A stretch of 36,250 nt of DNA from Chitinophagaceae bacterium (lineage in GTDB: Bacteria; Bacteroidota; Bacteroidia; Chitinophagales; Chitinophagaceae): NCBI GenBank assembly GCA_947446585.1, contig CANFGZ010000005.1, positions 1 through 36,250 on the forward strand, given 5' to 3'. A model generated the notes under the pieces. It saw nothing but the letters and a program-made list of their open reading frames with translations. It ran no database searches and was not told where the DNA came from. The position numbers were made by a program, and so were the translations under genes. Below, piece by piece: positions 21,937-35,832 of the stretch; within the stretch, counting starts at the first letter, position 1; the number at the start of each line of letters is the position of its first letter.

Positions 21937-21938
21937 TT

Positions 21939-21968
21939 GTTTGGCGTTTGGTGTTTGGCGTTTTTTGT
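21939..21968. repeat. 7-bp-period GTTTGGC tract
   Basis: GTTTGGCGTTTGGTGTTTGGCGTTTT; 31-bp identity (CAATTGTTTGGCGTTTGGTGTTTGGCGTTTT) with 33000-33030. Confidence 0.85.
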
Positions 21969-21990
21969 TTTAGTGAACAACAGCTTTTTA

Positions 21991-22106: not shown

Positions 22107-22595
22107 TCAAATTCTCTCCCACACCTCAATCGTATGATCAAAAGCATTTTTCTCATCCGCTTTACATTCAGTTGCAGAAACCAAATTCCATTCTATTGAC
22201 TTTAATTCAGGAAAAAAAGTATCCCCATCTATTTGGGTATGAACTCTGGTTAAGTAAATTCTATTGGCAATTGCCATACTTTGTCTGTATATTTCTCCAC
22301 CACCGATAATAAAGATTTCTTTGTAATGAGCCGCTGTGGCTTTTTCCAGCGCCTCTTCCAAACTATTTGCTGTCACCACATTTTCTGCAGTCCAATCTTT
22401 GTTGGAAGTAATCACGATATTCAATCTTCCCAGCAATGGTTTATTTACAGACTCAAAAGTTTTTCTGCCCATAACCACTACTCCACCCCAGGTAGTATTT
22501 TTAAAAAACTTAAGGTCATTCGGTAAATGCCAGAGCAGCTGGTTGTTTTTACCGATGGCGTTGTTGGTGGAAGCGGCGACGACGAGTGAAATCAT
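22107..22595 (-). CDS. folA: Dihydrofolate reductase
   Basis: MISLVVAASTNNAIGKNNQLLWHLPNDLKFFKNTTWGGVVVMGRKTFES, FIIGGGEIY. Confidence 0.97.
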   Translation of the reverse strand: MISLVVAASTNNAIGKNNQLLWHLPNDLKFFKNTTWGGVVVMGRKTFESVNKPLLGRLNIVITSNKDWTAENVVTANSLEEALEKATAAHYKEIFIIGGGEIYRQSMAIANRIYLTRVHTQIDGDTFFPELKSIEWNLVSATECKADEKNAFDHTIEVWERI

Positions 22596-22631
22596 GGGGG
22601 CAAAGGTAGAATGTATGTATTAGAATTAATA

Positions 22632-22667
22632 ATTAATAAGAAAGTAAAAATAAGGAATAAGGAAGTG
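22632..22667 (+). repeat. Left arm of perfect 36-bp inverted repeat
   Basis: ATTAATAAGAAAGTAAAAATAAGGAATAAGGAAGTG; exact reverse complement at 23229-23264. Confidence 0.97.
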
Positions 22668-22684
22668 CACTTAAAAAATAAAAA

Positions 22685-23062
22685 TCATTCAGATTTAAAT
22701 TGTGCTTGCTTGGCTTTTGATGTTTGAACACTTTTGATGAAAATGGCCATCAACTCGTTGACTTCAATAATTGACTTTTCTAGTAATTCATTTTTAATGA
22801 TGGGCTTTTCTTTTATTATTCTGAGATTTACACGAGTTTCTCTAAGTTCCTTTAAAGTCATTTTTAGTTTATGAATAAAATCTGCGTTTGATTCAGCAGC
22901 TTGGGCTTCACCATAAATCAATGCAGATGCGGTGGCACTTTTAGACAACTGATAAGATAAATTTTGAGCAGCTTTAGTAAGTGGTAATAAATCACATATC
23001 TCGAGAGATAAACAAGCGAATCTAATCAATCGATCTTCTAAGTCAAATCTTAGTTTTTGCAT
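22685..23062 (-). CDS. Four-helix-bundle protein (23S rRNA intervening-sequence protein / S23-like family)
   Basis: MQKLRFDLEDRLIRFACLSLEICDLLPLTKAAQNLSYQLSKSATASALIYGEAQAAESNADFIHKLKMTLKELRETRVNLRII; ATG at 23062. Confidence 0.88.
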   Translation of the reverse strand: MQKLRFDLEDRLIRFACLSLEICDLLPLTKAAQNLSYQLSKSATASALIYGEAQAAESNADFIHKLKMTLKELRETRVNLRIIKEKPIIKNELLEKSIIEVNELMAIFIKSVQTSKAKQAQFKSE

Positions 23063-23142
23063 AAAATCATTTTCAGCAAAACTGTGATTATACTTTATTA
23101 TACAAATGTGAAAATCAACAGTAAAATTTTGTTTTTTTCCAA

Positions 23143-23178
23143 ACCACAAAGGCACAAAAACTCAAAGTTTCACAAAGA
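23143..23178. repeat. 9-bp-period CACAAAG tract
   Basis: ACCACAAAG-GCACAAAAA-CTCAAAGTT-TCACAAAGA, upstream of the four-helix-bundle gene, inside the IR. Confidence 0.7.
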
Positions 23179-23228
23179 ATTTCTAAAAATCCAATACAGG
23201 AAACAAAGTCTGTTTCTTAACCAAAATC

Positions 23229-23264
23229 CACTTCCTTATTCCTTATTTTTACTTTCTTATTAAT
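23229..23264 (-). repeat. Right arm of perfect 36-bp inverted repeat
   Basis: CACTTCCTTATTCCTTATTTTTACTTTCTTATTAAT = reverse complement of 22632-22667. Confidence 0.97.
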
Positions 23265-23276
23265 CATTTCCCTTCC

Positions 23277-24071
23277 CTAAACCGCCACCGGCGCCTTAAT
23301 CCCCGCATGGCTCTCATAATTCACCAACTCAAAATCTTCAAACTTAAAATCAAAAATATCTTTTACGGCAGGATTGATTTTCATCTGCGGTAATGGAAAC
23401 GGAGTACGGGTTAATTGCAGATCTGCTTGTTCAAAATGATTGTTGTATAAATGCACATCGCCGAAGGAATGAACAAAATCTCCATATTGTAAATCACAAA
23501 CCTGAGCAATCATCATCGTTAGTAATGCATAAGAAGCAATATTAAAAGGAACACCGAGGAATACATCCGCACTGCGCTGGTATAACTGACAACTCAATTT
23601 ACCATCAGCCACATAAAACTGAAACAAACAATGACAAGGCATCAGTTTCATTTTTGGCAAATCCGCCACATTCCAGGCGGAAATAATCATGCGGCGACTA
23701 TCGGGATTGGTTTTGATAGTATGAATCAAATCTTTTACCTGATCAACAACAACTCCATTTGACCCTTCCCAACTACGCCATTGCTTGCCATAAACCGGAC
23801 CTAAATCGCCATTTTCGTCAGCCCATTCATTCCAGATGGAAACATTATTTTCTTTTAAATAAGCGATATTGGTTTCGCCTTTTAAAAACCAAAGCAACTC
23901 ATAAATGATACTTTTTAAATGTGTTTTTTTGGTAGTAACCAATGGAAACCCATCAGCCAAATTAAATCTCATCTGATAGCCAAAACAGCTTCTGGTGCCT
24001 GTTCCGGTGCGATCACTTTTATCAGTTCCGTTTTGTTTGATGTGTTTGAGTAGGTCTAAATATTGTTGCAT
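23277..24071 (-). CDS. thyA: Thymidylate synthase
   Basis: [72 protein letters not shown]. Confidence 0.98.
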
Positions 24072-24078
24072 GGGTGCA

Positions 24079-24119
24079 AAATAAGTAAAAAGTAAAAATT
24101 TAAAAGTAAAAAGTAAAAA
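24079..24119. repeat. 7-bp-period AGTAAAA tract
   Basis: AGTAAAAAGTAAAAATTTAAAAGTAAAAAGTAAAAA. Confidence 0.7.
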
Positions 24120-24256
24120 TGTTTGGCGTTTGGTCGCTGCGCTTGTTTGGCGTTTGTTGTTCTACTTACTTAGATAAATAATTGAATTTATAAATATTTT
24201 GAAAAATAAACAAAAACAACAATAAACAAAACAACGCCAAACCCCAAACCCCAAAC
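24120..24256. repeat. GTTTGGC heptamer repeat with opposed arms
   Basis: TGTTTGGCGTTTGGTCGCTGCGCTTGTTTGGCGTTTGTTG ... CAAAACAACGCCAAACCCCAAACCCCAAAC. Confidence 0.8.
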
Positions 24257-24264
24257 ATAAATAG

Positions 24265-25507: not shown

Positions 25508-26263
25508 ATGAAAAATCAACATTTCCGTATTAACAAACTGGCTTTAATTTTTTACTTTTTACTTTTTACTTTTTACTTATCAAGCTGTAAAAAATCCGAA
25601 TCCTACACCTCTCCTTCCATTGCCGATTACAATCCATTACAAACCGGAAAATACATTACTTATCAACTCGATTCATTAGTTTATCTTTCTTTTGGAACCC
25701 GCGATACTACAGTATCTTATCAAGTAAAATACCTCACCGATTCTTTGATTACAGATAATCTGGGAAGGCCAGCCTATCGTATTTTCAGATTCATCAGAAA
25801 AGATGAAAATTATTCATGGGCTCCCGATGCTACATTCATGTCCGTTAATACCGGAAATAACTTAGAATTCATTGAAAATAATCTCCGTTATATAAAATTA
25901 CAGATGCCCATTAAAGATGGCTTTACCTGGAAAGGCAATTCATATATTGATACGTATTCTGCAAATTCATTATTAAGATATCTCGATAACTGGGATTATG
26001 TTTACAGCAATATAGGTAAAGCAGATGTGGTTGGCAGTTACAATCTCGATAATACATTAACTGTAAATCAGCGCGACGAAATTATCGGAATTCCAGATGA
26101 TCCCGGCAGCTACAGCGAAGTCAATTTCAGCCAGGAAAAATATTCAAAAGGCATTGGAATGGTATATCGGAAATTTTTTCACAGCGAATATCAGCCCAAT
26201 AATGGAGGCTATTTCGCTGATGGCTCATACGGAGTAACTTACACGATGATTGATCATAACTAA
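25508..26263 (+). CDS. Hypothetical lipoprotein
   Basis: Lipobox-like LSSC after hydrophobic core ALIFYFLLFTFYLSSCKK. Confidence 0.75.
   Translation: MKNQHFRINKLALIFYFLLFTFYLSSCKKSESYTSPSIADYNPLQTGKYITYQLDSLVYLSFGTRDTTVSYQVKYLTDSLITDNLGRPAYRIFRFIRKDENYSWAPDATFMSVNTGNNLEFIENNLRYIKLQMPIKDGFTWKGNSYIDTYSANSLLRYLDNWDYVYSNIGKADVVGSYNLDNTLTVNQRDEIIGIPDDPGSYSEVNFSQEKYSKGIGMVYRKFFHSEYQPNNGGYFADGSYGVTYTMIDHN
25547..25579 (+). repeat. (TTTTTAC)n heptamer tract inside the lipoprotein signal peptide
   Basis: TTTTTTACTTTTTACTTTTTACTTTTTACTT; reverse-complement word of 24079-24119. Confidence 0.85.
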
Positions 26264-31731: not shown

Positions 31732-32997
31732 ATGCAACAAAAAATAACGATGGGTATAAATGGTAAATTGATTGTGCCTGATCAGCCAACAATTCCATTT
31801 ATAGAAGGCGACGGCATTGGTCCGGATATTTGGAAAGCGGCCGTTCGTGTATTTGACGCTGCTGTTGAAAAAGCTTACAACGGAGAAAGAAAAATCAACT
31901 GGCTGAAAGTGTTGGCCGGTGAAGAAGCCTTCAACCAAACCGGAGAATGGATGCCGGAATCCACCATGGATGCTTTTAAGAAATACTTGATTTCTATAAA
32001 AGGTCCACTCACTACGCCTGTTGGCGGTGGCATCAGAAGTTTGAATGTGGCGCTTCGTCAGGAATTAGATTTGTTCGTATGTCTGAGACCCGTGAAATAT
32101 TTTGAAGGCACCCCCTCACCTATGTGGCATCCCGAAAATGTGAACATGATTATTTTCAGAGAGAATACGGAAGATATATATGCCGGTATCGAATACATGA
32201 CGGGAACTCCTGAAGCAAAAATGCTTCTTGATTTTCTGGTAAATGAATTGCATGTTAAAAAATTAAGATTTCCTGAAACCACTTCTTTTGGAATTAAACC
32301 GGTGAGTAAAGATGGTAGCGAAAGACTCATCAAATCTGCAATACAACATGCCATAGCACATAAATTACCCTCTGTAACCATTGTTCATAAAGGTAATATT
32401 ATGAAATACACGGAAGGATCTTTTAAAAACTGGGGCTATGAACTGGCTGAAAGAGAATTTGGTGGCGACGTATACACTTGGCGCCAATGGGAAAAAACAA
32501 AAGCAGAAAGTGGCGAAGCCGTTGCCAATGAAGAAATGCGTATCAGCAGCATGGGCGGAAAAATAATTATAAAAGATGCCATTGCAGACAATTTTTTACA
32601 ACAAGCTTTATTAGCGCCACAGGATTATAGTGTTATTGCCACACTTAATTTAAACGGCGATTATATCAGTGATGCATTGGCCGCTCAGGTTGGTGGTATA
32701 GGCATTGCTCCCGGAGCTAATGTCAATTATCTGACTGGACATGCTGTATTTGAAGCTACTCATGGAACTGCTCCCCGATTTGCAAACACCAACACCATGA
32801 ATCCTTCATCACTTATTTTAAGTGGTGCAATGATGCTTGAATATATGGGATGGAGAGATGCTGCAGAACTAATTACCAACGCGGTTGGAAAAACAATAAG
32901 AAATAAAACAGTCACTATCGACTTTTATAATCTTTTAAAAGAAGGAACTTTATTGAAAACCAGTGAATTTGGGGAAGAGGTGGTGAGGAATTTGTAG
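31732..32997 (+). CDS. icd: Isocitrate dehydrogenase, E. coli-like (type I) family
   Basis: [90 protein letters not shown]. Confidence 0.93.
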
Positions 32998-33003
32998 TTC
33001 AAT

Positions 33004-33089
33004 TGTTTGGCGTTTGGTGTTTGGCGTTTTATGTTTCGGCTTAAATAAAAAAACACCAAACAAGCGCAGCAACCAAACGTCAAACAGTG
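33004..33089. repeat. GTTTGGC heptamer repeat, opposed arms
   Basis: GTTTGGCGTTTGGTGTTTGGCGTTTT ... AACACCAAACAAGCGCAGCAACCAAACGTCAAAC. Confidence 0.85.
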
Positions 33090-34370: not shown

Positions 34371-34437
34371 ATGCCTCACCCCCAACCCCTCTCCAATAGA
34401 GAGGGTGAATCCTTCGAATAAGTTTTTTATATTTTGA

Positions 34438-34470
34438 AACCGCCTTTCTTTCTGAAGGGCGGTTTTTTAA
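34438..34470 (+). terminator. Intrinsic terminator of the second IDH (copy 1)
   Basis: AACCGCCTTTctttctgAAGGGCGGTTTTTTAA. Confidence 0.75.
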
Positions 34471-34565
34471 TTTGTTACATTTCCCCCTTGCGGGGATTGA
34501 GGGGCTCCCCCCCCTCTCCAATAAAGAGGAGGAAAATCTCAAAATATGTTTTTTATTTTTTTTGA

Positions 34566-34599
34566 AACCGCCTTTCTTTCTGAATGGCGGTTTTTTAAT
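34566..34599 (+). terminator. Duplicated terminator hairpin (copy 2)
   Basis: AACCGCCTTTCTTTCTGAATGGCGGTTTTTTAATT. Confidence 0.65.
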
Positions 34600-34647
34600 T
34601 TGTTTTACATTTCCCCCTTGCGGGGATTTAGGATGCAACTCCCCTCT

Positions 34648-35832
34648 CTATTGGAGAGGGGTTGGGGGTGAGGCTGTCCTACTCCCCGCATACAACTCAT
34701 ACTCAAACAACCTGCAATCAATTTTGCCATTATAAAATTCGATTCTTCTCTTTGGCTTCAATCCGATTTTTTTAGCGAGTTCTAAATTGCCAGTAAAAAT
34801 ATATCCCCAATAACCTTTACATTTTTGTTTAAGAAAATCTCCCATCCTTTTGTAAGTACCTTCCAATTCAATTTCAACACCTAGCCTGTCGCCGTACTCA
34901 GGATTGAAGAACACAACACCTTCTTGATTTTCTGGAATGGTAGTATCAGCAAAATCACAACATTCAAAACTGATCATTTCTTCCACGCCGGCAATACCTG
35001 CATTTATTTTTGAAATGGAAATGGCATCTTCGCTGATATCTGAAGCAATTAACCTTACCGGTGAATCATGTAAGACTTGCGATTCCATTTGTTGATAATG
35101 ATGATCATATATTTTTTCATCATACCCACATACATGCATAAACGAATAATTATTTCTGAACAAACCCGGCTTTCGATTGGTAGCCAACATCGCAGCTTCA
35201 ATGGCAATGGTTCCGGAACCACACATTGGATTGATGAAAGTGGATTTTCGGTCCCATTTCAATGCCAGCAAATTAGCTGCTGCAAGCGATTCAAGCATTG
35301 GCGCTTTACCTGGAATTTTTCTATACCCGTGTTTAGATAATGTTTCACCACTAGTATCCAAAAACAATTCCGCCTGACTTTCCTTCCAGTATAAATGAAC
35401 TACAACGCCCGTCAATTCAGGGCCAGAATCTGGTCGCTCTCCTGTCTTTTCTCTGAAACGATCAGCAATCGCATCTTTCACTTTCACATTTGCAAACAAA
35501 TTATTCGTTATTGTTTCATTGGTTACATTACTGGTAATTGAAAAATATTCATGGGCAGGAATGATTTTTTCCCACTCAATTTTCGACAATTCTTTATACA
35601 AATCATTGGCATTATAAGCCGTAAATTCTTTTAAGGAAAACAATACCTGTGAAGCACAACGAAGATGTAAATTCAATTTGATGCAATCATCGAGCGTTCC
35701 CAACAATTCAACGCCGGTTTTAAAAATACGAATCGGCGCAAATCCAAGTGCTTCTATTTCTTGTTGTAAAAAAGGCGATAGTCGATTACTGCAAGTAACA
35801 ATAATCCGATTTTTAATAGCAAATAAATTCAT
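34648..35832 (-). CDS. THUMP-domain class I SAM-dependent RNA methyltransferase (RlmL N-terminal-like)
   Basis: GVVVHLYWKESQAELFLDTSGETLSKHGYRKIPGKAPMLESLAAANLLALKWDRKSTFINPMCGSGTIAIEAAMLATNRKPG; C-terminal SPPTPLQ is repeat-derived. Confidence 0.92.
   Translation of the reverse strand: MNLFAIKNRIIVTCSNRLSPFLQQEIEALGFAPIRIFKTGVELLGTLDDCIKLNLHLRCASQVLFSLKEFTAYNANDLYKELSKIEWEKIIPAHEYFSITSNVTNETITNNLFANVKVKDAIADRFREKTGERPDSGPELTGVVVHLYWKESQAELFLDTSGETLSKHGYRKIPGKAPMLESLAAANLLALKWDRKSTFINPMCGSGTIAIEAAMLATNRKPGLFRNNYSFMHVCGYDEKIYDHHYQQMESQVLHDSPVRLIASDISEDAISISKINAGIAGVEEMISFECCDFADTTIPENQEGVVFFNPEYGDRLGVEIELEGTYKRMGDFLKQKCKGYWGYIFTGNLELAKKIGLKPKRRIEFYNGKIDCRLFEYELYAGSRTASPPTPLQ

Follow-up and report, generated by a model that had tools for sequence, protein, structure and literature searches.

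Why should a single small gene, wedged between thyA and folA, be enclosed by a perfect inverted repeat that is built from seven-base words? We address this question for a stretch of 36,250 nucleotides of Chitinophagaceae DNA, to which we refer as the window. According to a preliminary description of this DNA, a perfect 36-bp inverted repeat surrounds a 561-bp interior with one four-helix-bundle ORF that is read in the same direction as thyA and folA. Each of these points is borne out: positions 22632-22667 are the reverse complement of 23229-23264 in every letter, the size of the interior is correct, all three genes are located on the minus strand, and the enclosed ORF matches the S23 family models PF05635 (35.6 bits; cut-off 33.8) and TIGR02436 (56.7 bits; cut-off 24). 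With mismatches allowed, the arm pair covers 45 nt (93%) and ranks first among the inverted repeats of the 36 kb window. Both arms comprise five heptads that point inward to the S23 gene (Table 1), and the repeat stands above chance, since period-7 words of this kind are found again at relatives. When the whole genome was searched with the 36-mer, allowing up to three mismatches, the two arms and one solo site with 2 mismatches were recovered and nothing else, while the reversed pattern, which served as the control, gave 0 matches. No Rfam match was found at 22400-23500; this result, and the site between thyA and folA, characterize the insert as an element resembling an intervening sequence (IVS), yet not as a 23S rRNA IVS.

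Table 1. Features at and around the thyA-folA junction of the window.
Feature	Position	Strand	Description
folA (dihydrofolate reductase)	22107..22595	-	downstream neighbour, co-directional; PF00186
folA-side arm	22628..22667	+	AATAATT AATAAGA AAGTAAA AATAAGG AATAAGG AAGT(G); exact 5-heptad+AAGT pattern
S23/four-helix-bundle gene	22685..23062	-	ATG start, 125 aa, pI 9.1
possible degenerate 8-base-word repeat	23139..23178	+	CACAAAGG-like; between thyA-side arm and ORF; read from sequence
thyA-side arm	23229..23268	-	AATGATT AATAAGA AAGTAAA AATAAGG AATAAGG AAGT(G); perfect inverted copy over 36 nt
thyA	23277..24071	-	upstream neighbour, co-directional; PF00303

A check of other family members for flanking inverted repeats had been suggested, and most of the S23 genes that we examined do have them. 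Among 80 S23 loci collected from public genomes of relatives, 79 of which possessed enough flank to be scored, inverted repeats with a score of at least 30 occurred at 62 of 79 S23 genes versus 4 of 195 other genes residing on the same contigs (p=3e-28). A period-7 autocorrelation is present in both S23 flanks and absent from the S23 genes themselves. Runs of AA at an exact spacing of 7 have their mode at six on both sides, which corresponds to five heptads plus the AAG at the inner end; such six-AA runs were found in 62 of 163 arms versus 2 of 1630 shuffles. Anchored at the inner AAG, the AA occupancy amounts to.81,.82 and.69 at positions -21, -28 and -35, and to.27 and.12 at -42 and -49; the anchored profile has a sharp end at five heptads. 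For 321 flanks, drawn from about 165 S23 loci, the period was scanned without reference to any word: the best period was 7 in 114 flanks and 8 in 24, with 0 in the shuffles. Heptad runs attain a density of 7.1 per kb in intergenic DNA near S23, versus 0.88 in other intergenic and 0.05 in coding DNA. The unit number varies around five, with some arms having 4 or more than 6 units and the period-8 class having a median near 4.4, and about one fifth of the closest S23 loci, along with a larger share of the distant ones, lack clear arms.

The words from which the arms are built are to a large extent a matter of the individual locus. In genomes rich in S23 genes (15 in G063, 16 in G068, 14 in G084), the words differ between loci, with GGTTGGA, GATACTG, TCCACAG and AATGTAA as examples, and the middle word of an arm is often deviant (e.g., AACAAGG). 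When each left arm was compared with right arms genome-wide, its best partner was its own in 9 of 13 cases in G063, 4 of 6 in G121, 11 of 16 in G068 and 11 of 14 in G084; the median own-arm score within a genome was 29, as opposed to 17 to the other S23 loci (p=4e-22). Hence, the two arms that flank one S23 gene tend to be built from a common word, distinct from those of other S23 genes in the same genome. The corresponding cross-locus test over mixed genomes is weak, with rank 1 in only 10 of 45 cases, as many of the loci have dialects in common; the proper test is consequently the one made within genomes. Between the loci of one genome, the correlation of S23 protein and word is weak as well (rho 0.17, p~0.02).

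The protein encoded by the window gene yields an AlphaFold2 model of high confidence for the monomer (pLDDT 93), whose best Foldseek matches in the PDB are the S23 proteins 2RLD and 2GSC, the Avd protein 4DWL, and the ribonucleoprotein of a diversity-generating retroelement (DGR), 8UBE/8UB7. Both 2RLD and 2GSC contain the chains A to E. From these two structures and 4DWL we infer that the window protein, whose own model depicts a monomer fold, would assemble into a pentamer; S23 has been described as a homopentamer (Lin 2006, as quoted in PMC4990558). S23 proteins are basic (median pI 9.0), TIGR02436 is present in 153 of 198 Bacteroidota genomes, and a dN/dS of 0-0.09 in 7 of 8 orthologue pairs demonstrates purifying selection on the S23 protein.

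Taken together, we consider it probable that the window element belongs to a class of intergenic S23 intervening sequences, in which one S23 gene is located between two arms of five heptads plus AAGT and these arms are the putative binding sites of the pentamer. As S23 and Avd are homopentamers, we propose one heptad per subunit: the homopentameric ring would bind one arm in single-stranded form, either RNA or DNA. A single strand would be the more suitable ligand because five equal steps suit a ring, whereas a step of 7 bp strays from one face of B-DNA. In a read-through transcript the arms would pair. A stem in the thyA-folA transcript had already been predicted in the preliminary description, and folding in silico recovered it in the minimum free energy (MFE) structure with about 40 bp and z=-3.8. 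Such a stem might be cut by RNase III, which, by analogy with the 23S rRNA IVSs, would free the S23 message from the host operon and would therefore allow this operon to tolerate the insert. Arm-bound S23 may then control processing or its own expression, and may mark the ends of the element for its spread.

Five-heptad arms also exist where no S23 gene is nearby. The window genome harbors nine exact five-heptad arms, versus none for the reversed pattern, and seven of these nine, that is all but the two of the window, are solo. In the 198 Bacteroidota genomes, the count of exact AAT-type arms is 94 versus 12 for the reversed control, and exact five-heptad arms are present in 29 of 153 genomes with S23 versus 2 of 45 without. 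Other heptad-word repeats without S23 can be found in the window itself in both orientations (21938-21970, 24081-24158, 24220-24257 and 32988-33086), with the words AACGCCA/AACACCA and AAGTAAA. A further heptad array (TTTTTACTTTTTACTT...), at 25543-25580, is situated inside the ORF 25508-26263, where it encodes the hydrophobic N-terminal segment YFLLFTFYLSS; this heptad repeat may consequently be part of a lipoprotein signal peptide. At 34373-34674 of the window, a terminator-like hairpin (AAACCGCCTTTCTTTCTGAAGGGCGGTTTTTT) is duplicated and enclosed by a perfect inverted repeat of 33 bp (CCTCACCCCCAACCCCTCTCC...) that is not of the heptad type.

Such solo arms lend themselves to a different explanation, in which S23 is an RNA-binding regulator of the host whose regulon is dispersed. 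It would have its operators in untranslated regions in the form of solo arms, its own arms would serve autoregulation, and its spread would be incidental. The strong purifying selection on S23, the intergenic position of the solo arms and their excess in S23-containing genomes would all fit, and S23 is placed co-directionally with its two neighbours at 55 of 70 and 46 of 74 loci. The history of the thyA-folA junction speaks on both sides. S23 is found there in 19 of 80 relatives, mostly in the same orientation, and we therefore regard the junction as an old site with losses and swaps, at which S23 is a long-standing resident in Chitinophagaceae; given the same count, a recent insertion at this junction is not supported. 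Genomes of the same genus without S23 at this site have gaps of 12, 13, 52 and 164 nt, and the junction of G014 contains a solo arm of the window's word and no S23. In the closest relative (L010), ThyA and FolA are 99% and 97% identical to their counterparts from the window and the entire junction is a different cassette, with AATGTAA words and an S23 gene in the opposite orientation whose product has 69% amino acid identity to the window S23. This cassette (L010, 330-1800), like the one at the thyA-folA junction of L061/G010, carries inside its AATGTAA arms a second gene as cargo, which we label DinB-like from reading its sequence. The contig of L010 is labelled as a Streptomyces griseus metagenome-assembled genome; with a thyA product 99% identical to that of the window, it is clearly Chitinophagaceae-like. 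A host regulator is difficult to reconcile with an S23 gene whose presence, orientation and identity at a given site vary between sister genomes, and with words that differ from locus to locus. Solo arms occur in both orientations relative to their neighbours, although the numbers are small and the test is uninformative, as loci were oriented by the S23 gene. We therefore judge this explanation to be rather unlikely.

It is likewise unlikely, in our view, that the arms are an RNA stem and RNase III site only, with heptads that arose by replication slippage and are not read by S23. What this reading has in its favour is the presence of the window stem in the MFE structure, the cleavage of the Coxiella IVS by RNase III within its stem (PMC4990558), and the effect of register on arm similarity: at 18 loci with two clear arms, and outside the AAT positions, identity is.672 in register and.546 out of register. 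However, even out of register, the words within one locus resemble each other far more than they do the words of other loci (.347). The shared word thus outweighs register, register counts too, and both reading and pairing may be selected. The AAT positions, moreover, are conserved even where the two arms pair poorly, solo and hence unpaired arms have the same five-heptad form, and pairing requires neither a period nor a fixed number of units.

If S23 reads its own arms, as we propose, how do gene and arms behave at a given site? An empty-site comparison across relatives had been recommended; it uncovered empty, solo-arm and swapped sites, the thyA-folA junction included. In a genus of which many species have been sequenced (G068 and its sisters), the L208 cassette of G068 measures 455 nt, versus 13 nt in the sisters G095 and G099, and the same site in G084, G056, G130 and G193 is occupied by a 63-nt hairpin of a different word. 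Where the L200 cassette has 547 nt, sisters have 43 nt or, in G130, 71 nt that include a solo five-heptad arm; the L205 cassette (577 nt) corresponds to 28 nt in the sister genome G130. At the site shared by L195 and L192, the neighbours are about 90% identical and the S23 proteins 53%. The single pair of within-genome S23 copies that we found at unrelated sites, L174 and L176 in the complete genome G063, has 80% homology from outer arm end to outer arm end and none beyond. The arms are part of the unit, and have been moved or swapped together with the S23 gene. The notion of a chromosomal IVS-like unit put forward in the preliminary description thus gains support from the empty and swapped sites of sister genomes, from the family-wide inverted repeats and from the predicted stem, whereas a simple recent insertion at the window locus is not supported. 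As no target-site duplication was detected in the empty-site comparisons or at the window junction, and as the empty sites contain short replaced stretches, the swaps may reflect ordinary recombination between flanking genes. At one site, L254, L262 and L263 (G084, G130 and G056), G130 has a five-heptad AGCTGTC solo arm where G084 and G056 have one heptad each, and arms may therefore contract or expand.

An ordinary miniature inverted-repeat element (MITE), or a decayed insertion sequence served by a transposase in trans, shares with the window element the terminal inverted repeats and the small size, and arm-arm hairpins without a gene do exist, including two inverted pairs of facing five-heptad arms that are 2-5 nt apart (G129:C23:18804-18886 and G129:C63:98548-98627). 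We nevertheless regard this origin as very unlikely: unlike in such elements, no target-site duplication is seen, the words of the inverted repeats vary among loci, the enclosed S23 gene is intact and under purifying selection, and the ends of the window element lack a genomic family of near-identical copies. The idea that S23 prefers to insert into pre-existing heptad repeats, so that the arms are split target sites, can draw on the S23-less heptad arrays of the same genomes and is highly improbable, since it is rejected by the heptad-less empty sites of 13 nt in G095/G099 and 28 nt in G130, the arms of L174 and L176 are homologous at unrelated sites, and the arms are inverted and not the halves of a split direct array.

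Heptad arms are not confined to Bacteroidota. In cyanobacteria, S23 genes on plasmids are flanked by arms with the words AACAGGG (Nostoc), AAAAGGG (Geminocystis) and ACAGGTG (Anabaena, between cas6 and cas4), while no heptad arms were found at the S23 gene of Calothrix (L232). Two cyanobacterial S23 genes (L231 and L235) are located between CRISPR genes (cas10/cmr3 and cas6/cas4), and the gaps at L231 are about one arm in length. In Azospirillum, the arm reads TTCAGAG GACGGAT GACAGAG GACGGAG GACAGAA, and since this locus lies inside the large-subunit rRNA, a true 23S rRNA IVS has five-heptad arms.

To our knowledge, IVS elements and the S23 protein have been without a function since about 1990. 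S23 genes lying between inverted arms of five heptads in several phyla, together with a homopentameric protein, connect the puzzle of the heptamers with that of the IVSs. It is conceivable, and we put this forward tentatively, that S23 homopentamers are sequence-specific ring readers of single strands with one word of 7 (or 8) bases per subunit, that each gene has its own word in both arms, and that the intergenic heptamers of bacteria are arms, solo arms and arm-arm hairpins of a class that includes the 23S rRNA IVSs. If true, this would describe a class of very small mobile cassettes whose sole gene encodes a ring reading its own ends, and it would give a reason both for the heptads and for their number of five; the design of S23 arms may then explain the abundance of 7-base repeats in bacterial genomes. 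The IVS with its S23 ORF, the Avd fold and the intergenic heptamers were already known separately; their connection appears to be new, as we found no link between S23 and heptads in the non-subscription papers that we searched beyond the description of the Coxiella IVS.

How does the window element compare with known systems? Intergenic heptamers have been reported as TAACTGA in Beggiatoaceae, cyanobacteria and Bacteroidetes (PMC4679880), and as GGGAATC in Xanthomonas, where the arrays mostly have four units, and GGGGA(C/T)T in Nostoc (PMC4692102); a survey found tandem heptamers to be the commonest intergenic periodic repeats of prokaryotes, with no clear clue as to their function (PMC6344855). 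The window arms share with them the period of 7, the intergenic position and the small number of units, and convergent pairs are frequent in Xanthomonas; unlike the window arms, these heptamers carry no S23 link in the three studies. The 23S rRNA IVSs with an S23 ORF are listed for Coxiella, Leptospira, Xanthomonas and Brucella, and in Coxiella GACAGAT heptamers precede the S23 ORF, a feature that its authors did not connect with the pentamer (PMC4990558). Like these IVSs, the window insert has one S23-family ORF (PF05635) and complementary ends that form a predicted stem around it, and it shares heptamer repeats at this ORF with those of Coxiella and Azospirillum. Unlike them, it is situated at thyA-folA, uses an AATnnnn word and contains an intact gene that is under purifying selection in relatives. 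Homology of PF05635 to the DGR accessory protein Avd has been stated before (PMC10053308), and the monomer model of the window S23 has the same fold. In contrast to Avd, the window S23 stands alone between heptad arms; in the ORF list at 19-27 kb we recognised by reading neither a reverse transcriptase-like ORF nor template and variable repeats beside S23.

A parallel for the reading that we propose is provided by the ring protein TRAP, whose 11 subunits bind repeated RNA triplets in steps of about 5 nt. As in TRAP, one repeat unit would be read by each subunit of a ring, provided that S23 binds its arms as we suppose; different from TRAP, the S23 fold is unrelated, the subunits are 5 and the steps 7 nt. 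The modal number of five heptads matches the five chains in 2RLD and 2GSC, a correspondence between repeats and subunits of the TRAP type.
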